A stretch of 64,000 bases of DNA from Deltaproteobacteria bacterium (lineage in GTDB: Bacteria > Desulfobacterota > Desulfuromonadia > Desulfuromonadales > Geopsychrobacteraceae). This document shows, piece by piece, positions 27,720 through 39,176 of this stretch. The notes under the pieces are model-generated. The model was given only the letters and a program-made list of their open reading frames with translations. It did not search any database and was not told where the DNA came from. How positions within the stretch are numbered: the first letter of the stretch is position 1; each line of letters starts with the position of its first letter. The stretch is taken from assembly GCA_024279255.1 (NCBI GenBank), contig JAJRRT010000107.1, positions 62,001-126,000 on the forward strand, written 5' to 3'. The translations under genes were made by a program, and so were the position numbers.

Positions 27720-28470
27720 AGGGACGCTTCACTATTTTTCAAGTTTCTCCGCCACTTTGCAGGGGCGGCCAACCCTCTTCGCCCTGATCTTACGGTTCAG
27801 TTCATATTCGATGGTATCAATAAAACTGTCGGCACCGAAGGGACGACCACTGCGGGTCGCTTTGCGGATGGCTCTGTTCTGGGCTTCATCCTCAATTTTG
27901 AAAAAAGCGGCATAATCGTCGCGCGCCGCAGGTTCAAGCCAATCCGATTGACACAGCAAACCATCAGTCGCATCGGTCAAATGAAGTCTCGCGCTCGACC
28001 AGCGATAATCCTCCGCGTGTTCAGCCAACCCGCCCTTAAGGGGATTGCGTTCGATATATCGTGCTACCGCCCACAAATACTCATCATTCTCGACCACACA
28101 GGAAAAGAAACGATTTTGCCAGATTCGTCCAGATTGGCCCAGCTTGCGGTTGAGATACTGAGTGTAGACCAAGTTTGTCAACCCAATGCCACGCGCCAAC
28201 GAGATCTCACTTTCCGGTACAACCAGCAGGTGCACATGGTTATCCATCAGACACCAGGCCCAGATCTGCAAACCGTACTTTTGTGCATAACCCGCAAGCA
28301 GATTAAGGTATGTCTGACGGTCTTCGTCATCAAAAAAGACGGCCGAGCGATTGTTGCCGCGCTGGGTAATGTGATGAGGATACCCGGGGGCTATGATGCG
28401 TGCGATTCTTGGCATAAGAAAAGGATAGATTGGATAGCAGCATAAATCAACTAAATAGGGAAGTGTCCCT
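27720..28470. mobile_element. RAYT/Y1-transposase unit bounded by imperfect 18-bp inverted repeats
   Basis: AGGGACGCTTCACTATTT (27720-27737) versus reverse complement of 28453-28470, AGGGACACTTCCCTATTT: 16/18 identical. Confidence 0.55.
27732..28415 (-). CDS. REP-associated tyrosine transposase (Y1_Tnp / IS200-like domain)
   Basis: MPRIARIIAPGYPHHITQRGNNRSAVFFDDEDRQTYL...AWCLMDNHVHLLVVP (HUH), YIERNPLKGGL..AEDYRWSSA. Confidence 0.92.
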   Translation of the reverse strand: MPRIARIIAPGYPHHITQRGNNRSAVFFDDEDRQTYLNLLAGYAQKYGLQIWAWCLMDNHVHLLVVPESEISLARGIGLTNLVYTQYLNRKLGQSGRIWQNRFFSCVVENDEYLWAVARYIERNPLKGGLAEHAEDYRWSSARLHLTDATDGLLCQSDWLEPAARDDYAAFFKIEDEAQNRAIRKATRSGRPFGADSFIDTIEYELNRKIRAKRVGRPCKVAEKLEK

Positions 28471-28641: not shown

Positions 28642-29001
28642 CTAGTGAAAATTGAGCCTCTCAGAAAGTAATGCGGCATTCCTGGCAGTAGAGTAGTCAT
28701 CACCAAAAGCAGCATTTTTTACGATTATGGCTAAAAATTTTTGCTTCTCTGAGAGGGATGGTAGATCACGAACCAGATAGAAAGCTTCAGAAAAATTATT
28801 GTTTGCCAAGCAGCTCTGGATCATCGCCAATCTATGGGTCAGGACGAATGGTCGGTCGAGTTGCCTTAAAATTTTCAAAGCAGCAAAAACATCCCCTTTC
28901 TTGATTTTCTTTTCGAGTCGTATTTCGAGCTCTCTCTGAGAAAGAATTTTTTCTTCGTCTGCAAGCCTAAAAAACTTTTTTATAAACTTTAGATATCTCA
29001 T
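28642..29001 (-). CDS. hypothetical helical-repeat protein
   Basis: 119 aa, KIKKGDVFAALKILRQLDRPFVLTHRLAMIQSCLANNNFSEAFYLVRDL; TPR-like pattern. Confidence 0.5.
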   Translation of the reverse strand: MRYLKFIKKFFRLADEEKILSQRELEIRLEKKIKKGDVFAALKILRQLDRPFVLTHRLAMIQSCLANNNFSEAFYLVRDLPSLSEKQKFLAIIVKNAAFGDDYSTARNAALLSERLNFH

Positions 29002-29035: not shown

Positions 29036-29797
29036 CTAACCTGGGGTTTTTCCGAGAAGGCGTAAAAGGCCATCCAGAACGGTGTAAGGATGAGGCGGAC
29101 AACCCGGAATATACAAATCCACCGATAACAGGTTGCCAATCCCATGATTGACCTCCGGGCTCTGACAGAAAGGCCCCCCTGCGATTGCGCAGGCTCCGGA
29201 AGCGATGACCAGTTTCGGATCGGGGATGGCGGCGTAGGTATCAAGCAAGGCACTTTTCATATTTTCAGTCACTGGGCCGGTCACCAGCATGCCGTCGGCA
29301 TGGCGCGGCGAGGCGACAAACTGGATGCCGAAGCGACCAAGGTCGAAGACCAGTGTACCGAGGACATTGATATCGGCCTCACAGGCGTTGCAGCCACCGG
29401 CTGAGACCTGACGTAATTTCAGGGATCGACCGAAGAGCTTGTGCATCTTCTTTCCAAGTTTATCGGCCAGACGGTAGGCTTCATCATTCAACAGCAGCCC
29501 TTCGCGCAGGGAGGTCGCAAGGCGGTAATCATTGCTGAAGGTCAGAGCGCCATACTCAATAGCCGCCGGGCAGTCGGCGCAAAACAGGCAACGACCGAGA
29601 TCGATCTGAAGTTCACCCTCGTGGTCACTCAGGGCGGCGAAAGGACAGCTGACGACTGCCGCGCTAAGCGTCTGGGGAGATAGGTTTTCTGACACGCGTG
29701 GCAGTCCACGGAAGCGTTGCGGAAGCGTCGGTTCGATCTGAGGATATTTGGCGGTACGGTGTCCCTGTCGCAGACGTTCACGGATGATACTCAACAT
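29036..29797 (-). CDS. Hyf/Ech-type small subunit (NuoB-like) with N-terminal half-ferredoxin domain; Ehr-type complex
   Basis: GGCNACEADI...SGACAIAGGPFC...IPGCPPHPYTVLDGLLRLL; N-terminal SCPFAAL...CLFCADCP. Confidence 0.9.
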   Translation of the reverse strand: MLSIIRERLRQGHRTAKYPQIEPTLPQRFRGLPRVSENLSPQTLSAAVVSCPFAALSDHEGELQIDLGRCLFCADCPAAIEYGALTFSNDYRLATSLREGLLLNDEAYRLADKLGKKMHKLFGRSLKLRQVSAGGCNACEADINVLGTLVFDLGRFGIQFVASPRHADGMLVTGPVTENMKSALLDTYAAIPDPKLVIASGACAIAGGPFCQSPEVNHGIGNLLSVDLYIPGCPPHPYTVLDGLLRLLGKTPG

Positions 29798-29809
29798 AAG
29801 GATATTCCT

Positions 29810-31342
29810 CTAAAGATCAAATCCGCAGTACGACAAGTTGAAACTTTTGTTGCACAGCGGAAAGTCAGAAATTTGCTGGCCACGCAGGGCCATAGCTAGC
29901 CCGCTCCAGTTGTGGAACGAAGGGTCGACAATTTTGTAGCGACCGATTCGTCCCTCTGAATCGGTAATAGCGGCATGCACAACTTCACCGCGCCAGCCTT
30001 CACAGAGCGCAACCGCAAGACTGTCAGGCGCCAGCGACCCGAGCGGCGAGGAAATCTCTCCTGCAGGGAGTCGCTTTAGGAGTTGCTTGATCAACTCAAG
30101 GCTGGCATAAACCTCACGGCGGCGGATATTGCTGCGGGCAAAGACGTCACCGTCAAGTTCAATGACCGGCGTATCAAACCCGCCTGCCCAAGACCCCAGG
30201 GGGTGATGTAGGCGGGAATCACGCACCAGACCGCAAGCGCGGGCGGCCACACCGACAAGGCCCAATGCCTCAGCATCATCTGTTGATACAGTCCCGGTTC
30301 CTTCGAAGCGGGCGAGAACCGATGGCGAATCAAAACAGAGGTCGATTGCCCCACGGGTATCCCGTTCGAGGCCTTTAAGGCGCGTGCTGAAGGTTTGGAG
30401 TAAAGCACCATTCAGATCGAAACCAACTCCGCCGGGGCGCACCAGCCCGCGACCGAAGCGACTCCCACAGAGTTCGGCGGTCAGGTTCAGATAATCACCG
30501 CGCAGCCGGCCACAGAAGGAGGCGGTCGGCAGGAAACCCACATCGCCAGCTAAGGCGCCGATATCACCGACATGGTTGGCGAGGCGTTCCAGTTCGAGGG
30601 CTATGGCTCGAATCGTCTGCGCCCTTGGTGGAGGTGCGCTGTAGGCGAGACTTTCCAGCAACTGCGAGTAAGCGGTTGCATGGCCAATACTGGTGTCACC
30701 TGCGGCCGCCTCAACTTGATAGATTGCGGCGGGATGAGGGCCGCCGATCAGCATCTGTTCGATTCCACGGTGCTGATAGCCGAGGGAAATCTCGAGATGC
30801 ATGACCTCTTCGCCGTGGCATTGAAAACGGAAGTGCCCTGGCTCGATCACTCCGGCATGCACCGGGCCGACCGCCACCTCATGAACCTCTTCCCCCTCGA
30901 CCCGATAGAACTCCATATCTCGAGGGATTGGGTGCTCGCCTTGAGGGCGGCCCCAGATATCATCCACCTCGAGCCAAGGGCGATGGAAGCGCACTGGTTT
31001 CAACCATGGATGACCCTCGGGGTGCAGGCCAAACTGTTCAGCCAGTTCCCGCTCAAACAGGTGAAGTTGTGGACATTCAAGGGTCAGGGATGGAAAGGAA
31101 CCACTGACTCTTGTGCGCAACAGGGCAAGTTCCCCGCGCCAGTCATGAGCGAGGATGGCAAAAATCTCGATCTCTTCACCGTTATTCTGGCTGACAGGTC
31201 GGCCAAAATATGCTGCTACACGGGCATCTGCAGTGACTTCCTCCAATAAGGATTCCCTAAACTCGTCGTAGCTGAGTTGCGGAATGTCGGCAAGAGGAAC
31301 GCCAAAACCGTGACGGAAGCGGACCAGAGTCGCGTGATTCAT
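29810..31342 (-). CDS. hydrogenase-like large subunit (NuoCD-like fusion) lacking NiFe ligands; Ehr-type complex
   Basis: 510 aa; N-terminal 30-kDa-like domain (LERELAEQFGLHPEGHPWLKPVRFH), then GVIEPGHFRFQCHGEEVMHLEISLGYQHRGIEQ; no CxxC at either L1 or L2. Confidence 0.9.
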   Translation of the reverse strand: MNHATLVRFRHGFGVPLADIPQLSYDEFRESLLEEVTADARVAAYFGRPVSQNNGEEIEIFAILAHDWRGELALLRTRVSGSFPSLTLECPQLHLFERELAEQFGLHPEGHPWLKPVRFHRPWLEVDDIWGRPQGEHPIPRDMEFYRVEGEEVHEVAVGPVHAGVIEPGHFRFQCHGEEVMHLEISLGYQHRGIEQMLIGGPHPAAIYQVEAAAGDTSIGHATAYSQLLESLAYSAPPPRAQTIRAIALELERLANHVGDIGALAGDVGFLPTASFCGRLRGDYLNLTAELCGSRFGRGLVRPGGVGFDLNGALLQTFSTRLKGLERDTRGAIDLCFDSPSVLARFEGTGTVSTDDAEALGLVGVAARACGLVRDSRLHHPLGSWAGGFDTPVIELDGDVFARSNIRRREVYASLELIKQLLKRLPAGEISSPLGSLAPDSLAVALCEGWRGEVVHAAITDSEGRIGRYKIVDPSFHNWSGLAMALRGQQISDFPLCNKSFNLSYCGFDL

Positions 31343-32766
31343 GGCTGCACCTCCAACAGACTGGTCGCATCACGCAAGGCGCTTTGCAAGGGCTCAGGCA
31401 GATAAACCCCGAGCATCAGGATAATTAATAAAAAGGTGATTGGTGAGATGACCAACAGGAAACTATCCTTAAAATCTGTCTCAAGGTGGACTGGTTCCCC
31501 TTGAGTTGCGGTTAAGGCTGTTGCCCCCATTCCGATAAAGACAACCCCCAAAAGAAACAACACCAGCAAGCCAATCCAAACCTGACCGCTGCTAAAGATA
31601 CCGCGCAGGATGGTGAATTCACTCATGAAGGGTCCAAAGGGAGGAGAGCCGGTAACCGCGAGAAACCCAGCCAGAAAGACGCTCCCTGAAATCGGCAGGG
31701 TCGCGATAGCACCATGCACCCTGGAAAGTTTTTTACTGTCATAGGCGCGTTGGATGTTGCCGGCGGCAAGGAACAGGCACCCCTTGGTCAGGGCGTTATT
31801 GACCAGGTGCAACATGGCTCCAAAAGTCGCCAAGCCACCGATGCCGACCCCGATCGCCAGAATGCCCATGTGTTCGACAGAGGAGTAGGCCAGCAGGCGT
31901 TTGATGTCGGGTTGACGAACCATGAAAATCGCCGCCACCGCCATCGACAGAAGTCCCATGCCAAGCAGTGCCTGTCGAGCCATATCCCCATCACCAGCCG
32001 CGGTCATCAGTTGCACCGCACGTAAAATTGCCAGAAAAGCTACGCTGGTGAGTCCACCCGCAAGCAGGGCACCGACCATCCCGGGAGCCTCGCCGTAGGC
32101 ATCAGGTTTCCAGGAGTGGAGAGGTGCCAGACCCATCTTGGTGCCGAAACCGACCAGCAGAAAGACGAACCCGGCGTGCAACCAGGGGCGTGACAAAATT
32201 GTTGCACCACTGAGTAGGCTGTCGAACTGCAGACTAACCGACATCGCGCCACTGACCAGCGCGGCGTAAGCTATGAACAGCATGCCGAGCATCGCCAGGC
32301 CGATACCAACCGAGCAAAGAAGTAAATATTTCCAGGTCGCCTCAATCGACAGGCGGTTACGGTTGTAGTAGATCAGTGGCGCACTCGAGATGGTAGTCGC
32401 TTCAACCGCCATCCACAGCAGCCCGAGGTGGCGAGCCGAAATCGCCAGAGTCATGGCCACCAGAAAGATCAGCAGACAGGGGACGATGATTTTGTTGCCA
32501 CGATCCCTGCGCAGATTGAGATAACCGACCGCATAGATGGCACAACCGAAGTAGAGCAGACTGGTAACGATCAGCACCAGTCTGGAGAGTGCATCAAGGC
32601 CGATCCAGGGCCCGAGCTGCGGAGCAGGGCTATTCAGGAGGAGACATGTCAAAAACAAATGCAATCCGCCACAGAGCGGGAGCAGCCAGGACCGCCCCTG
32701 ATACCAGGGGAGAAAGAGGGAGGTACCAGCCCCTGCGAGTGGAAATAGAATGAGAAAAAGCAACAT
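31339..32766 (-). CDS. proton-translocating membrane subunit, HyfF/NuoN/M-like
   Basis: 475 aa polytopic; GFGTKMGLAPLHSWKPDAYGEAPGMVGALLAGGLTSVAFLAILR; DIKRLLAYSSVEHMG. Confidence 0.9.
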   Translation of the reverse strand: MLLFLILFPLAGAGTSLFLPWYQGRSWLLPLCGGLHLFLTCLLLNSPAPQLGPWIGLDALSRLVLIVTSLLYFGCAIYAVGYLNLRRDRGNKIIVPCLLIFLVAMTLAISARHLGLLWMAVEATTISSAPLIYYNRNRLSIEATWKYLLLCSVGIGLAMLGMLFIAYAALVSGAMSVSLQFDSLLSGATILSRPWLHAGFVFLLVGFGTKMGLAPLHSWKPDAYGEAPGMVGALLAGGLTSVAFLAILRAVQLMTAAGDGDMARQALLGMGLLSMAVAAIFMVRQPDIKRLLAYSSVEHMGILAIGVGIGGLATFGAMLHLVNNALTKGCLFLAAGNIQRAYDSKKLSRVHGAIATLPISGSVFLAGFLAVTGSPPFGPFMSEFTILRGIFSSGQVWIGLLVLFLLGVVFIGMGATALTATQGEPVHLETDFKDSFLLVISPITFLLIILMLGVYLPEPLQSALRDATSLLEVQP

Positions 32767-32769
32767 GGT

Positions 32770-33402
32770 CTATTCCTTCAATGCCGTCAGACGTTCTGTC
32801 TCGAGGCTGGTAAATTCGCGACTGATCTGGTTGAGCACGATCCCCATAACAAAAACACCGACCAGCAGGTCGAGCAGAATCCCGGCTTCGACCATTAAGG
32901 GGATGGCCGCGGAAAGTAGCACTGCGAAGATGAAAATACCGTTTTCAAGCATCAAGTAGCCTAGGACCTGGGTTATCGCCTTGCGCCTTGTAATCAGCAT
33001 CAGAAAGCCACAAAACATGGTTGCCAGCGCAGTTGGGACGAAGAGTCCTTCATGGTGCTCGTGAGCTAGCGGCAGAAAATCAGAAAAGATGAAAGCTCCG
33101 GCGGTGACCAGTAAGCCGAGAACCAGGGTCGGTACGAAGCCGATAAAGGATTCCACGTCGCGTCGGATACGTACTTCACGGATCGTACGCAACAGGAGCA
33201 GGGGAATGAATATCCCCTTGAAGAGCAGAGCTCCAGCTCCAAGGAGCAGAGCGTGCCCTGTTGGTCCGTGTGTCGCAAGCGGCAACAGGGCCAGCAGAGC
33301 GCCCTGTAAAGCAACCGCACGAATACAGGCGACCAATCTGGCGCTGCCGAGGGTGTAAAAATTGAGCAGAATAACTAAAAGCAAGAGCAGGTTAGCCATC
33401 AA
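32770..33402 (-). CDS. HyfE-like membrane subunit
   Basis: 210 aa polytopic; QVLGYLMLENGIFIFAVLLS and LLDLLVGVFVMGIVLNQI. Confidence 0.85.
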   Translation of the reverse strand: MMANLLLLLVILLNFYTLGSARLVACIRAVALQGALLALLPLATHGPTGHALLLGAGALLFKGIFIPLLLLRTIREVRIRRDVESFIGFVPTLVLGLLVTAGAFIFSDFLPLAHEHHEGLFVPTALATMFCGFLMLITRRKAITQVLGYLMLENGIFIFAVLLSAAIPLMVEAGILLDLLVGVFVMGIVLNQISREFTSLETERLTALKE

Positions 33403-33408
33403 GGCCTC

Positions 33409-34323
33409 CTAACGCAAAACCAGAACCAAAGCGAAGATTGATATAAGTGTGGTGCCAACCAGGACCTGTGGAACCCGAGGAAGTTGCAATCGGGCCATAG
33501 TTGATTCGACCACGCCGATTAACACGGCCAGGGTCAGCAGTCCCGCTAAAAAAACCAGTAAGTCGAGCAAAATGGACCCGGTTTGTATTGGCAGTGCGAT
33601 GCGCACCAACAAGGCACCCATGACCATGAGTTTCATTGAGGCACCATAGAGGACCATGCCGAGTGCCGGGCCACTATGGTCAAGGACCATCACCTCATGG
33701 ATCATGGTTAATTCCAGATGGGTGTTGGGGTCGTCAAAGGGGATGCGTGAATTTTCGACCAATAGCACCACAAACAGACAGACCAGGATCAGTCCCAGTG
33801 ATGCGCTGGCATCCCCCTGCCACTGACCTGCCAACTGCGACCCGAACAGGGAACCTAGATTCAGACTCTTAGCACCACGGGCCAATACCAGCAGGGCAAA
33901 AAACAGCGTCGGCTCAGCCAGGCAGGAGAAGGTCACCTCGCGGGCCGCACCCATCCCTTCGAAACTCGAACCGGTATCCAGTGCCGCAGCGGCGGTAAAG
34001 AATCGAGAAAGACCGAACAGATAGACAAACAGGATCAGGTCCCCGGTAAAGGAGATCGGCGCGGGGAGCCCACCGAACGGCAGTAACAGCGCAGCCAGCA
34101 GCGGCACGACCAGTCCGACCACCGGGCCAGCCAGGAAGACCCAGGTGGTGGTGCGGCTGATGACGAACCCTTTACGCCAGAGGCGGCCGAGGTCGTAATA
34201 GGGCTGCAGAACTGGGGGGCCGATACGCCCGGCAAAGAGCGCCTTGGTCTTATTGATCACCCCCAGCGGGAGCGGGGCGAAGATGAGGAGTACTGCAAGC
34301 TGTAATGCTATCCGGCCGATCAT
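33409..34323 (-). CDS. HyfC/NuoH-like membrane subunit
   Basis: 304 aa; GVINKTKALFAGRIGPPVLQPYYDLGRLWRKG; FDDPNTHLELTMIHEVMVLDHSGPALGMVLYGASMKLMVMG. Confidence 0.9.
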   Translation of the reverse strand: MIGRIALQLAVLLIFAPLPLGVINKTKALFAGRIGPPVLQPYYDLGRLWRKGFVISRTTTWVFLAGPVVGLVVPLLAALLLPFGGLPAPISFTGDLILFVYLFGLSRFFTAAAALDTGSSFEGMGAAREVTFSCLAEPTLFFALLVLARGAKSLNLGSLFGSQLAGQWQGDASASLGLILVCLFVVLLVENSRIPFDDPNTHLELTMIHEVMVLDHSGPALGMVLYGASMKLMVMGALLVRIALPIQTGSILLDLLVFLAGLLTLAVLIGVVESTMARLQLPRVPQVLVGTTLISIFALVLVLR

Positions 34324-34337
34324 TGTTAGGCTACCTT

Positions 34338-36302
34338 TCAGCGGGTCAGCAAAGTCAGAAGGACAATCAGGGTAAGGGCAACGTAGAGCAGGTAGATCGC
34401 GACGACGCCGTTCTGGAAAAGCCAGCGAAACCTGTGGAACAGCCAGGCGATCCCGGCGAAGGCCGGGGTAAGCGTCAGGTCGAGGACCAGATCAGGGGTG
34501 TGACTCGAAAATTCATCATCATCTGGAAAGAGACCTTCGATCCGGCCACCATGCCGTTTGCTGCAGAGTCCGAAACGGAACAATCTCACCAGATTGTCAG
34601 CAAGGGAGCTGGCGGTGTATTGCATACTGGTCGCCGGGAACTGATAACCGCAGCCCCAGGTGCCAATATCACGTGAAGCCTGACGGGATTGACGCTGGAG
34701 CCACCAGCCGCCGAGAAGGAGTAGCCCGAGGAGTATCCAGCCAGCTAGGCTGATCGCACTCAAGGGGGCCAGATCACCGGCTAACGGTGGCAATGTCCGG
34801 TTGCCAGTCCAGTCAATCGCAGCTCTCTCCAGCAGCGCGCGTAAACTCCATGGGAGCAGCCCAATCCAGGCACAGGGCAAGAGCAGCATGGCCATTGGCC
34901 AGAGCATGGTGCGCTTTGCCTCCTTGGCCAGAGCCGCGCCGTTACTACGTGGTTCGCCGAGAAAACTCACACCAAAAACCTTGACGAAACAGGCCAGAGC
35001 CAGTCCACCGATCAGGGCTAGCACCGGAGCGATCAGCAGGCTGAGGGAGAGAACCGATCCCGGTTGCTGAAGGGGTTGGAAGGCACCGAGATAGATCAGC
35101 CACTCGCTGACAAACCCGTTGAACGGCGGCAGACCGCAGATCGCCACCGCGCCGCCGAGAAAGAACAGTCCGGTCCAGCATTGACGTTTGTGCAGACCGC
35201 CGAATTGATCGATTTCACGGCTGCCGACCGCGTGGATCATCGAACCTGCGCTGAGAAACAACAGCGATTTGAAGAGCCCGTGATTAACGACATGTAGCAG
35301 ACAACCGGCGAGGCCGAGAATGACCAGTGAAGGTTGGTCGTAACTGCGACCGAGCAGAGCCAGCCCAAGCCCCAGGGTTATGATACCGATATTTTCAACA
35401 CTGTGGTAGGCGAGCAGACGTTTGATGTCATGCTGTGCCAAGGCCAGCGCCACTCCCATGATTCCAGAGACAGCGCCGAGGAGCAAAAGCGTCCAGCCCC
35501 ACCAATCCGGGATCACTGCGAAAAAGGAGGTCAGCCGGACCAAACCGTAAATTCCGGTCTTGATCATGATTCCGGAGAGGAGCGCCGAGGTGTGACTGGG
35601 CGCGGCCGCGTGGGCACCGGGAAGCCAGATATGCAACGGCATCAGTCCGGCTTTCATGCCGAAACCAAACAGGCCGATGAGGAAAATCATGCTACTCCCT
35701 GCCAGTGGCATACTGGCGACCGTCGGGAATGCCGTTGATCCGGCGCTCCGTTCCAGCAGTGCGAACATCCCTAAAAGCGCGAGGGTTCCCGTATGAGTGG
35801 CGATCAGGTAGATATAACCGGCCTGGCGGACTTCAGCTTTACGATCCTCTATGGTGATCAGAAAATAGCCGGAGAGGGCCATGATTTCCCAGGCGATTAG
35901 AAAAAGAATACTGTTCCGCGCCGTCAGCAGTAGGATCATTGCCCCGCTGATCAGGCCGAAAAAGAGGCGCAGTTTGCGGCCATTGCCAGGATGTTCTTGC
36001 TGGGGCCAATAACTGAGGCCATAGATCGCGCCAGTTGCAACCACCAGCAGCAAAGGCGCGATAAATACGACCGAGATACTGTCGAGCACCAAGTTGAACT
36101 GCCCCCCCGGAACCGACCAGTTGCTGCTGAAAGATTGAAGCGGATCGCTGATGCTGAGCAACAGAGACCAACTACAGAACAGGGCCCCGAGAACAACCAG
36201 CCCGCAGGCCATACGTTCGCCGCCACCCTTGGTGCGATCAATAAACAGCCCAGGTATTCCTGAAATTGAAATCAGCAATAATCCGATCAACAGCCAGTTC
36301 AT
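34338..36302 (-). CDS. NuoL/HyfB-like antiporter subunit (copy 1)
   Basis: Start MNWLLIGLLLISI at 36302 overlaps the upstream gene end; GFGMKAGLMPLHIWLPGAHAAAPSHTSALLSGIMIKTGIYG. Confidence 0.9.
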   Translation of the reverse strand: MNWLLIGLLLISISGIPGLFIDRTKGGGERMACGLVVLGALFCSWSLLLSISDPLQSFSSNWSVPGGQFNLVLDSISVVFIAPLLLVVATGAIYGLSYWPQQEHPGNGRKLRLFFGLISGAMILLLTARNSILFLIAWEIMALSGYFLITIEDRKAEVRQAGYIYLIATHTGTLALLGMFALLERSAGSTAFPTVASMPLAGSSMIFLIGLFGFGMKAGLMPLHIWLPGAHAAAPSHTSALLSGIMIKTGIYGLVRLTSFFAVIPDWWGWTLLLLGAVSGIMGVALALAQHDIKRLLAYHSVENIGIITLGLGLALLGRSYDQPSLVILGLAGCLLHVVNHGLFKSLLFLSAGSMIHAVGSREIDQFGGLHKRQCWTGLFFLGGAVAICGLPPFNGFVSEWLIYLGAFQPLQQPGSVLSLSLLIAPVLALIGGLALACFVKVFGVSFLGEPRSNGAALAKEAKRTMLWPMAMLLLPCAWIGLLPWSLRALLERAAIDWTGNRTLPPLAGDLAPLSAISLAGWILLGLLLLGGWWLQRQSRQASRDIGTWGCGYQFPATSMQYTASSLADNLVRLFRFGLCSKRHGGRIEGLFPDDDEFSSHTPDLVLDLTLTPAFAGIAWLFHRFRWLFQNGVVAIYLLYVALTLIVLLTLLTR

Positions 36303-36303
36303 G

Positions 36304-38289
36304 TCAGCCTCCCCTGCCGGTCCAGACTGACCAGGCCAACAACAGAATACAGAGGATAAACATATAGAGCAGATAGATCGGTAATTGCCCCTGCTGCAGC
36401 CAGCGCAATTTCTGGCATCGATCTCCAACCGCGATAAAGAGCGGATTTAAAATGCGGATCAAAACAGGATCTGGAGAAGTTTGAGCCAAGCTGGTCGCAG
36501 CCGGAAATATTCCTTCGACCTTCTCCCGCTGCAGATGGGGGCGCATGATACCGGGCATAAGATGGGCCGCGGATAATTCAGAAAAACCCTCAGCGGTATA
36601 TGACATCCTAACGGTTGAAAAACGAAAACCACAACACCAGGTTGTGGCCTGAGCTCTGTGTCCTATGCGAAGGAGAAAGGTCAGAATTCCGGCACACAGG
36701 ATCAGCCCTGCCAGTAACAATAGTGCCCATTGACCAAGCGGTGCGACCGCACTCTCAAGTTCTGCTCCGACCGACAGGCGCGCCACCGAGGAGAGCGCGG
36801 GTGTCAGCAGACGGAGTGCCCCTTGTGGATAGATTCCGATCGCGAGACAGCCCGCCAGCAAGGTTGCCATACTGATCAGCATCGCTGGTGCCGTCGCATG
36901 ATGCTGGGCGATACTCGGATCGCGCGGTTCACCGAGCAGGCTGATCCCAATCAGGCGGGAGAAGGTGAGCAGTGCCAAGGCACCAACCAGACCGAGCAGG
37001 CCGATCAGCAAGAGTGGGACCAACGCATTGAAGCCGCCCAGAGATATCCCCGCCTGACTCAACCCGAGGTAGATCAGCCATTCACTGATCAGTCCGTTTA
37101 AGGGAGGCAGGGCTCCTAACGCCAGGCTACCGCCGATCAGCAGAATCCCGACAACGGGCATCTGTTTCAGTAGTCCGCCCATGCGGTTCATATCGCGTGT
37201 GCCGGTAGCCTGTAACAGAACCCCTGCCCCGAGAAACATGACTCCTTTGAAGAGAGCGTGATTCCAGAGATGCAGCATCCCGCCAGCGAAGGCAAAGAGG
37301 GCGATGGTGGGATATCCCTGTGCCGCTGCGACTAATCCGAAACCGAATCCGAGAAACATGATGCCGATATTTTCGACCGTTGAATAGGCCAGGCAGCGTT
37401 TGATATCGCGTTGCTGTGCGGCCATCGATATTCCATAGAGCGCACCGGCGGCCCCCAACAGTGCCATCAACCAGCCCCACCAGGCTGGTGCCGGAGGGAG
37501 AAAACTTAATATCCGCAGAATTCCGTAGATACCGGTCTTGATCAAGACACCGGACATCAGCGCTGAAACATGGCTAGGTGCAGCCGGATGAGCGTTTGGC
37601 AACCAGATATGAATCGGGAAGAGTCCCGCCTTGACGCCGAAACCGAACAGGGCCAGCATGTAAAGGAGTGAGCCACTTGTCAGCGGTAGCTCTGCCAGTG
37701 GACCGAAATCGCTAAAATTGAGGCTACCGGAATAGTTGCCGGCTAGAACAAACAGGGCGAGCAGTAATATCATGCAGCAATGAGCCGCCAGCAGGTAGAG
37801 CCATGCCGCTTTGCGGACTTCCTTAAGATGATGATCCCAGGCAACCAAAAAGAAAGAGGAGAGGGTCATGATCTCCCAGGCGAACAGGAATAGCAGGCTG
37901 TTCGCGGCCGTCACCACCAGGAGCATAGCCAGCACCATGATGGTATAAAAAAACCAGTGGGGAGCAAGCGAGCGGCTGCGTTCTCCATGAGCCAGATAGG
38001 GGCCAGCATAGAGCGTACAGAAGAATGAAAGTATGGAGATTGGCAAAATGAAAAAAGCTGCCAACGGATCTAGTAGCAGTCGGAATTCTCCCCCGGGAAC
38101 CGCCCAGGGCGTAGAGAAAGTCAAAGTCTGACCGCTGAGGAGAACCTGTAACGCAAGATAACCGCTCAGCATAGTGGCGAGCAAAACTGCTACCGCACCA
38201 ACTCGGGAGGCCAGTTTCGATTTACCAAGCAGCAGTGCACCCAGACTGCCGCCGAATAGAATCAGCAAGGCATATAGCAACAGGCTCAT
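36304..38289 (-). CDS. NuoL/HyfB-like antiporter subunit (copy 2)
   Basis: 661 aa; GFGVKAGLFPIHIWLPNAHPAAPSHVSALMSGVLIKTGIYG; RDIKRCLAYSTVENIGIMFLG. Confidence 0.92.
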   Translation of the reverse strand: MSLLLYALLILFGGSLGALLLGKSKLASRVGAVAVLLATMLSGYLALQVLLSGQTLTFSTPWAVPGGEFRLLLDPLAAFFILPISILSFFCTLYAGPYLAHGERSRSLAPHWFFYTIMVLAMLLVVTAANSLLFLFAWEIMTLSSFFLVAWDHHLKEVRKAAWLYLLAAHCCMILLLALFVLAGNYSGSLNFSDFGPLAELPLTSGSLLYMLALFGFGVKAGLFPIHIWLPNAHPAAPSHVSALMSGVLIKTGIYGILRILSFLPPAPAWWGWLMALLGAAGALYGISMAAQQRDIKRCLAYSTVENIGIMFLGFGFGLVAAAQGYPTIALFAFAGGMLHLWNHALFKGVMFLGAGVLLQATGTRDMNRMGGLLKQMPVVGILLIGGSLALGALPPLNGLISEWLIYLGLSQAGISLGGFNALVPLLLIGLLGLVGALALLTFSRLIGISLLGEPRDPSIAQHHATAPAMLISMATLLAGCLAIGIYPQGALRLLTPALSSVARLSVGAELESAVAPLGQWALLLLAGLILCAGILTFLLRIGHRAQATTWCCGFRFSTVRMSYTAEGFSELSAAHLMPGIMRPHLQREKVEGIFPAATSLAQTSPDPVLIRILNPLFIAVGDRCQKLRWLQQGQLPIYLLYMFILCILLLAWSVWTGRGG

Positions 38290-38363
38290 GGTTTTTCTGA
38301 GGACTTAAGCAAGGCTGCGAAGCTTTTGACGACAAAGCGCATCTATTCTCTTTCGTGAAATAT

Positions 38364-38391
38364 ATGTCCATGAATGGACATCTGTGGACAT
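38364..38391. promoter_or_regulatory. operator-like palindrome ATGTCCAT-GA-ATGGACAT plus a third half-site TGGACAT
   Basis: Read directly in the intergenic region between the Ehr operon and the divergent HTH-EIIA gene. Confidence 0.6.
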
Positions 38392-38498
38392 TATATCTTG
38401 GTGGGGACTATTGTCAATCCGAGTTGACAGATAAGCAAGCCGCTTGTTACTGTTTATTGTTTTTCATATTCGGAGGGGTAATCAACAGTGGGAGACAG

Positions 38499-39176
38499 AT
38501 GAACACTTCAGTTAAAGATGCAGCAAGTCTCTTGAGTGTTTCAGAGAAAACGATCTATCGATGGATCAAACAGGAGGTTGTCCCCGTATATCGGGTCAAT
38601 GAGCAATACCGCTTTAACCGCGCCGAATTACTCGAATGGGCTACGTCCCGGCGCATGGGTGTTTCTCCAGAGGCATTTCACGAGGCCGAAGATACGAGCA
38701 TCCCTCTACCAACTCTGATCGAATCTCTTGAAACCGGGCGGATTGTTTATCGTTTAGAAGGAAAAAATCGCGTGCAGGTCATGTCAGGACTTGTCGATGA
38801 ATTGAGTCTTCCGGAAGAGGTCGATCGTAGCTATCTGCTCAAGGTGTTGAATGCGCGTGAAGAACTCGCTTCGACCGGCATCGGCAATGGTATCGCCATT
38901 CCCCATCCACGCAACCCCGTACTGCTGCATATCACAAAGCCGAGTGTCACCCTGGCTTTTCTGGAAAACCCCATCGACTTTGACGCTCTGGACAGAAAAC
39001 CGGTTCATACCCTGTTCTGCCTGATTTCTCCGACCCTCCGTGCCCACCTTCACCTGCTTTCAAAACTCAGTTTTGCCTTACGGGACCCGGGATTTAAAAC
39101 CGCAATTGAGAATCAGGGGAGTCGTGATGAGATTTTTGCAGCTATGCGTAAACTGAACGAAACCCTGCTGCGCTAA
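38499..39176 (+). CDS. HTH (excisionase/MerR-like) - PTS EIIA (PtsN-like) fusion regulator
   Basis: MNTSVKDAASLLSVSEKTIYRWIKQEVVPVYRVNEQYRFNRAELLEWA; then EIIA-like LNAREELASTGIGNGIAIPHPRNP and LFCLISPTLRAHLHLLSKLSFALRD. Start at 38499 (ORF track extends upstream over the palindrome). Confidence 0.85.
   Translation: MNTSVKDAASLLSVSEKTIYRWIKQEVVPVYRVNEQYRFNRAELLEWATSRRMGVSPEAFHEAEDTSIPLPTLIESLETGRIVYRLEGKNRVQVMSGLVDELSLPEEVDRSYLLKVLNAREELASTGIGNGIAIPHPRNPVLLHITKPSVTLAFLENPIDFDALDRKPVHTLFCLISPTLRAHLHLLSKLSFALRDPGFKTAIENQGSRDEIFAAMRKLNETLLR

Follow-up and report, generated by a model that had tools for sequence, protein, structure and literature searches.

What might an energy-converting membrane complex of the hydrogenase lineage do once the metal site that defines a hydrogenase is gone? 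We consider this question at one locus of a Deltaproteobacteria bacterium (Desulfobacterota; Geopsychrobacteraceae; assembly GCA_024279255.1), within a stretch of 64,000 nucleotides of contig JAJRRT010000107.1 (positions 62,001 to 126,000 of the forward strand; hereafter the window, whose own coordinates we use throughout). Between 29036 and 38289, seven adjoining minus-strand genes encode a small subunit (EhrS), a large subunit (EhrL), HyfF-, HyfE- and HyfC/NuoH-like membrane subunits, and two HyfB/NuoL-like subunits, the same genes and subunit families that an initial annotation of the sequence had proposed. A group-4-type large and small subunit thus share an operon with complex-I-like membrane subunits, and the L1 and L2 CxxC motifs are absent; these are the features of the energy-converting-hydrogenase-related (Ehr) complexes. 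The complex itself is already known, the family having reportedly been described by Coppi in 2005 and Marreiros in 2013.

The composition of the operon and its loss of nickel ligands match what is reported for GSU0739-0745 of Geobacter sulfurreducens (PMC7894505, PMC8691401, PMC13194489), and Ehr has also been found in Sulfobacillus, Nitrospira, and Margulisbacteria (PMC4378227, PMC10284858, PMC6349859). Several of the papers cited here describe its function as unknown or uninvestigated, in keeping with the initial annotation, which had recognized the operon as Ehr and called its role unresolved. With confidence only a little better than even, we lean towards a reading in which Ehr would be a nickel-free, redox-driven ion pump that takes electrons from a ferredoxin-type donor, passes them to a small, protonatable acceptor other than a quinone, and is controlled by the nitrogen-related phosphotransferase system (PTS-Ntr) through a regulator gene, R, next to the operon.

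Conserved residues occupy the former nickel-iron site

EhrL (29810..31342, minus strand) is a NuoC-NuoD/HycE-like fusion, which we aligned with E. coli HycE, HyfG, and NuoCD and with orthologs of two types, here called Ehr1 (116 large subunits) and Ehr2 (12 large subunits). At the former L1 site (30692..30703; residues 214-217) the CGIC of nickel enzymes (HycE 241-244) is aligned to AGDT, without any cysteine, as had been read from the sequence at the outset. The former L2 site (29822..29839; residues 502-507) reads NLSYCG in place of DPCYSC, within an alignment of HycE SLDPCYSCTDR to EhrL SFNLSYCGFDL (residues 500-510). Here the initial annotation was right that the CxxC is missing but had placed the motif elsewhere: the stretch it named, IVDPSFHNWSGLAMAL, aligns to HycE CRAATYANWPTLRYML rather than to DPCxxC, with DPSFHNW opposite AATYANW. 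HycE C241, C244, C531, and C534 correspond to EhrL A214, T217, S504, and G507, and the alignment of the whole protein contains no CxxC pair at any other position. By this comparison, all four nickel ligands have been exchanged for conserved residues that are not ligands.

The replacements are close to uniform among the Ehr1 proteins. The C241 position holds Ala in 109, Ser in 5, Cys in 1, and Gly in 1; the next residue is Gly in all 116; the C244 position is Thr in 103 and Ser in 10 (113/116 together); and the C531 and C534 positions are Ser and Gly, respectively, without exception. A new aspartate, D216, stands between the former L1 ligands in 116/116 Ehr1 and 12/12 Ehr2 proteins, and a non-ligand cysteine, Cys506, lies between the former L2 ligand positions in 114 of the 116 orthologs. 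The canopy Asp, which is described as invariant across hydrogenases and complex I (PMC9474812), is replaced by N502 in 115 of the 116 Ehr1 proteins and in 127/128 when Ehr2 is included; K499, N498, S504, Y505, and D509 are also fixed among orthologs. EhrL furthermore stops where the mature protein would (HycE 538 faces a gap in 116/116), so that it has neither the four NiFe-binding cysteines nor the C-terminal tail cleaved during nickel maturation that characterize a group 4 [NiFe] hydrogenase. The proton route of HycE, with residue roles as assigned in PMC9474812 (E193, R478, H284, E437, and R395), is present as E167, R451, H257, E410, and R368 in 114-116 of the 116 proteins. Among solved structures, EhrL is nearest in sequence to HycE of E. 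coli formate hydrogenlyase (7z0s_E, E 3.4e-44), which is also the top Protein Data Bank match of an AlphaFold2 model of EhrL (pLDDT 84.3, pTM 0.88; TM 0.82 by query length).

Ehr is a distinct lineage under purifying selection

To place Ehr by descent, we built a tree of 66 sequences that included genuine group 4 hydrogenases (CGIC, DPCxSC) from the same class. Ehr1 and Ehr2 form a single clade (100/100) that contains the Ehr of Geobacter relatives (including locus L086), is separate from the nickel enzymes and from NuoD, and is joined to HycE/HyfG (100/99). On this sequence evidence, Ehr appears to be derived from a formate-hydrogenlyase-like (HycE/HyfG-type) enzyme; the approximately unbiased (AU) test does not reject a topology that groups all nickel enzymes and sets Ehr on the side of complex I (p = 0.316). 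In one genome of the class (G072, contig C3; loci L195, L196, L197), 13 matches to PF00346 are found, several of them genuine nickel-type group 4 subunits (CGIC, DPCxSC) beside Ehr.

The initial annotation had named two things that would overturn it: CxxC pairs elsewhere in the large subunit, or a placement inside a characterized nickel-containing clade with a sequencing error at L1 and L2. The alignment shows no such pairs, Ehr has a clade of its own, and the ligand loss extends over the 116 Ehr1 and 12 Ehr2 proteins. Both a sequencing error and a pseudogene are ruled out by orthologs sharing the substitutions and by a dN/dS of 0.09-0.13 for the large subunit gene in the five closest ortholog pairs. 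The replacements at the former nickel site are not decay, and the gene is under strong purifying selection. A 2026 paper on G. sulfurreducens KN400 treats Ehr as already non-functional (PMC13194489), that is, as a relic left idle by loss of the NiFe site. The missing nickel ligands and the missense changes that built up in ehr genes on long-term anodes (PMC13194489) are what such a view can draw on, but it does not fit the dN/dS values, nor the intact seven-gene operons, the invariance of the replacement residues over many phyla, and the conservation of a dedicated regulator and operator; we find it scarcely credible.

Within the class, 133 of 194 genomes carry Ehr large subunit genes, and named hosts include Planctomycetota, Verrucomicrobiota, Lentisphaerota, Acidobacteriota (Geothrix), Spirochaetota (Treponema, Rectinema), Desulfovibrio piger, Elusimicrobia, Omnitrophota, Myxococcota, and Chloroflexota. 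At loci L075-L080, L095-L099, and L164 there is a second, divergent Ehr operon, often adjoining the first, whose large subunit is 36-39% identical and reads SGDS and NxSYSG at the former nickel sites; in L096-L098 it carries its own R and operator. In L107, L108, and L124, one NuoL-like gene has been relocated downstream of the small subunit gene.

The small subunit and membrane arm retain redox and pumping residues

EhrS (29036..29797, minus strand) fuses a HycF/NuoI-like N-terminal domain to a NuoB/HycG-like domain and keeps the motifs GGCNAC, SGACAIAGG, and PGCPP, consistent with the earlier statement that its Fe-S cysteines are retained. The proximal 4Fe-4S ligands (C136, C139, C203, and C233) have the CxxC spacing of hydrogenases, unlike the adjacent CC of complex I and unlike the shortened loop of MBS, the sulfane sulfur reductase of Pyrococcus furiosus (criteria from PMC7684303). 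These cysteines are kept in at least 105 of 109 small subunits, and the ferredoxin-type cysteines in at least 104. Of the two 4Fe-4S ligand sets of the N-terminal domain, one is left in the window's EhrS (C51, C70, C73, and C76), while the other, found in some 80-85% of relatives, has been lost. By Nqo9 numbering, the retained set is presumably N6b, which adjoins N2.

The membrane arm, also on the minus strand, comprises a HyfF/NuoN-like antiporter subunit (F, 31339..32766; E122, K210, K289, K328, and E383 conserved), a HyfE-like, NuoK-related subunit (32770..33402), a HyfC/NuoH-like anchor bearing the E-channel carboxylates (33409..34323), and two HyfB/NuoL-like antiporter subunits, B2 (34338..36302) and B1 (36304..38289), the latter being the first gene of the operon. 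For B2, the listed open reading frame (ORF), 34338-36428, reaches a spurious upstream TTG, and the ATG at 36302 is the likelier start. In B1, B2, and F, the charged residues expected of antiporter-like subunits (TM5 Glu, TM7 Lys, TM8 Lys, and TM12 Glu) show 97-100% conservation. The TM7 Lys has been lost from HycC of formate hydrogenlyase (PMC9474812; also seen in our alignment), and judged by residues alone, Ehr would be better equipped for pumping than FHL-1. It is from these residues that we infer ion pumping by Ehr.

Possible redox partners of Ehr

One acceptor to consider is a quinone: in complex-I-like fashion, Ehr might use the former NiFe cavity to pass ferredoxin electrons to menaquinone. 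Ehr and respiratory complex I (NuoCD/NuoB/NuoH/NuoLMN) have in common their architecture and fold family, the absence of a NiFe site, three antiporter-like subunits, and the E-channel; the host of the window, which also carries two ordinary NuoD-type genes, has the MqnA/D marker of menaquinone synthesis; and the topology with Ehr on the complex-I side of the nickel enzymes is not rejected. The pocket itself differs. The complex-I quinone residues, Nqo4 H38 and Y87 (PMC7684303), correspond in our alignment to NuoCD H224 and Y273 and in EhrL to I166 and G215, which are Ile and Gly in 128/128 Ehr1 and Ehr2 proteins; the canopy Asp has become Asn, and the proximal ligands are CxxC rather than CC. 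Neither the window operon nor the recurring neighbors of Ehr include an NADH or equivalent input module, and the large subunits fall outside the complex-I branch, in their separate clade. Searches for MqnA/MqnD and for MenD (PF16582) both gave no match in 13 of 20 diverse Ehr host genomes, a soft absence because several are drafts; all three isolate controls (Geothrix, D. piger, and Geobacter) gave MqnA/D matches. UbiA was dropped as a quinone marker because it is too broad. Given the lost quinone residues and the 13 hosts without matches, the evidence speaks against a quinone as general acceptor, and we regard quinone reduction as distinctly unlikely. MBS offers another parallel, as a hydrogenase-derived pump without NiFe, but it keeps two of the four NiFe cysteines and a three-Cys proximal cluster (PMC7684303), whereas Ehr has lost all four and retains a full four-Cys proximal cluster.

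On the donor side, clustering of flanking ORFs at 80 named loci revealed no conserved donor or acceptor gene beside Ehr, only R and incidental families. As a donor module is neither encoded nor conserved nearby, and no donor or acceptor enzyme recurs with Ehr, a soluble, ferredoxin-like donor would be the simplest reading. A more specific proposal would have a formate dehydrogenase dock on EhrS and send formate electrons to an acceptor. The nearest relative by tree and fold match is, after all, formate hydrogenlyase/Hyf (group 4a; HycE, HyfG), which shares with Ehr the HyfB/C/E/F homologs, the proton path, and the CxxC proximal ligands; in G. sulfurreducens all Ehr subunits are more abundant on formate (PMC7894505); and fdhA and nuoEF-like genes lie near Ehr in Margulisbacteria/Saganbacteria (PMC6349859). 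Compared with formate hydrogenlyase, however, Ehr lacks not only the nickel ligands and maturation tail but also the HycB/FdhF module, including the HycB-type docking subunit, and its HycF and HycG equivalents are fused and shortened, with the distal ferredoxin-type cluster lost in the window's EhrS. Genes for fdh, HycB-like, and nuoEF-like proteins do not recur beside Ehr in the 80 loci and are missing from the window, making a formate-linked complex quite improbable. Just downstream of the operon lie an uncharacterized 119-aa ORF (28642-29001), not conserved beside Ehr, and beyond it a protein with an IS200-like Y1 transposase domain (27732-28415).

A PTS-Ntr-type regulator and its candidate operator

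Divergent to the operon, on the plus strand, lies R (38499..39176; the listed ORF begins with the GTG at 38355), a gene overlooked by the initial annotation and encoding a fusion of HTH_17 and PTS_EIIA_2 domains with an intact phospho-acceptor motif, GNGIAIPH. R resembles PtsN/EIIA(Ntr) in its EIIA domain and phospho-acceptor His motif (35% identity to the host's PtsN over the EIIA part) and differs from it in the added N-terminal HTH_17 and its tie to Ehr operons; apart from PtsN, it is the sole such protein in the genome. One EI and one HPr are encoded adjacent to each other on the same contig as PtsN, so that the components of a PTS-Ntr regulatory system are all in place.

Of 92 Ehr operons, across phyla, whose upstream DNA was visible, 68 have an R-like gene beside or within them: it leads the operon on the same strand in 54, is internal in 9, and is divergent in 5. 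Most full-length copies have the motif G[DNE]GIA[IVL]PH. Among the 194 genomes of the class, 112 have both R and Ehr, 21 Ehr only, 9 R only, and 52 neither (Fisher p 7e-21, without correction for kinship). At L158, L159, L161, L164, L166, L167, L171, L172, and L179, whose hosts are Verrucomicrobiota, Kapaibacterium, and Desulfomicrobium, the Ehr operon itself contains a diverged R-like HTH-EIIA gene (24-29% identity) that precedes the one for the HyfC-like subunit.

Upstream of the operon, a promoter matching the consensus at 12/12 positions (TTGACA-16-TATAAT, 38390..38417, minus strand) is predicted to drive Ehr; its -10 box abuts an operator, TGTCC-N5-TGTCC (TGTCCACAGATGTCC, 38376..38390, minus strand), which is overlapped by a palindrome read from the sequence (TGTCCATTCATGGACA, 38365..38380, minus strand). 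The same order recurs upstream of R genes, where TTGACA and a spacer are followed by TAATGTCC-N5-TGTCC; the operator there sits on a TTGACA/TATAAT promoter, roughly 45 bp ahead of the gene. A perfect operator is present in the upstream 200 bases of 27/63 R genes (row L071 left out), mostly 39-60 bp before the start, compared with 9/1280 random windows and 0/1280 shuffles. Across the 194 whole genomes, the extended pattern TAATGTCCWNNNWTGTCC has 20 exact matches (4 for the reversed-pattern control), of which coordinate comparison places 18 immediately ahead of R or in the interval from R to Ehr; the others lie directly before an Ehr operon (G010:C10:399) and elsewhere (G131:C32). A wider R regulon was rejected: 19/20 of these matches are at R or Ehr, and the four other operator-like matches in the host's own genome lack a promoter. 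Sigma-54 promoter matches were at chance level, with none upstream of Ehr. Because the operator sits over the -10 box, R most likely acts as a repressor of the operon.

Between promoter and operon, there is an 18-codon leader (MRFVVKSFAALLKSSEKP, 38286..38342, minus strand), whose stop codon and the start codon of the first Ehr gene overlap (ATGA). As it resembles the N-terminus of the R gene found ahead of Ehr in relatives (L066 MNVAVKDASRLLSVSEKT, L067 MNLSVKDAAVLLSVSEKT), the leader is probably the remnant of a second, same-strand regulator gene that has been deleted. By the published composition (PMC7894505), Ehr of G. sulfurreducens (ehr A to D, S, L) has the same subunit types, two NuoL-like subunits, and loss of all NiFe ligands; the window differs in that the leading regulator gene is cut to this leader while the divergent R remains, and in the single ferredoxin-type ligand set of EhrS. 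We found no Ehr-linked EIIA regulator or operator in the open-access papers searched; the regulator-operator module would be a new part beyond the known Ehr family, and one that a specialist would not have expected.

A proposed mechanism for Ehr

In the mechanism that we favor, a soluble low-potential donor, most likely ferredoxin, would reduce EhrS, and electrons would travel through one ferredoxin-type 4Fe-4S cluster and then the proximal 4Fe-4S cluster into the former NiFe pocket (D216, S504, N502, R451, H221, and E167), where an acceptor other than a quinone, small and protonatable, would take them up. Protonation there would drive the E-channel and the three ion-translocating modules. R would bind TGTCC-N5-TGTCC over the -10 region, with phosphorylation of its EIIA domain by PTS-Ntr setting the switch.

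Several observations weigh against this picture. The strongest anomaly is that the small subunits of L116 (Planctomycetales) and of L159, L162, and L171 (Verrucomicrobiota) lack some or all of the proximal-cluster cysteines, although these loci retain the large subunit pocket (except for T217->V at L171) and an otherwise intact operon, a combination of which a redox pump would give no account. The donor and the repression by R are what we infer from the evidence above; 24 of the 92 Ehr operons have no R nearby; and the former NiFe region of the EhrL model is largely of low pLDDT (156-176, 183-188, 504-510), unusable for pocket geometry. Substituted motifs in the four small subunits include GGNAAEEAD, GAEAIS, and PGWPP, and the small subunit of L163 (Desulfomicrobium) reads PGLPP.

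The cysteine losses beside an essentially unchanged pocket keep alive a redox-silent exchanger, in which the membrane arm would be an Mrp-like cation/H+ antiporter and the L/S arm a structural or sensory cap. The complete charged sets of the three antiporter subunits would suit such a device, as would control by an EIIA(Ntr)-type protein. In E. coli, PtsN acts on K+ transport. A role in pH homeostasis has moreover been proposed for Methylacidiphilum (PMC6688271). The proximal and ferredoxin-type cysteines are nonetheless present in at least 95% of the 109 small subunits, and the redox-site proton path is kept; a plain antiporter would need neither, and we consider a redox-silent exchanger unlikely.

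Implications for the Ehr family

Ehr stands between hydrogenases and complex I; its hosts span many phyla, and for two decades it has gone without an assigned function. Our analysis names the invariant residues that replace the nickel ligands and argues against quinone and MBS-type chemistry, and the selection and conservation data contradict the published claim that Ehr is non-functional. As a tentative proposal, one that we would hold possible rather than probable in its full form, Ehr may be a widespread, metal-site-free, quinone-independent pump with an undescribed acceptor (or a redox-gated exchanger), governed by a dedicated PTS-Ntr repressor acting through one operator, and thus a third re-use of the hydrogenase pocket after complex I and MBS. 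R and its DNA site offer a genetic handle on Ehr function.

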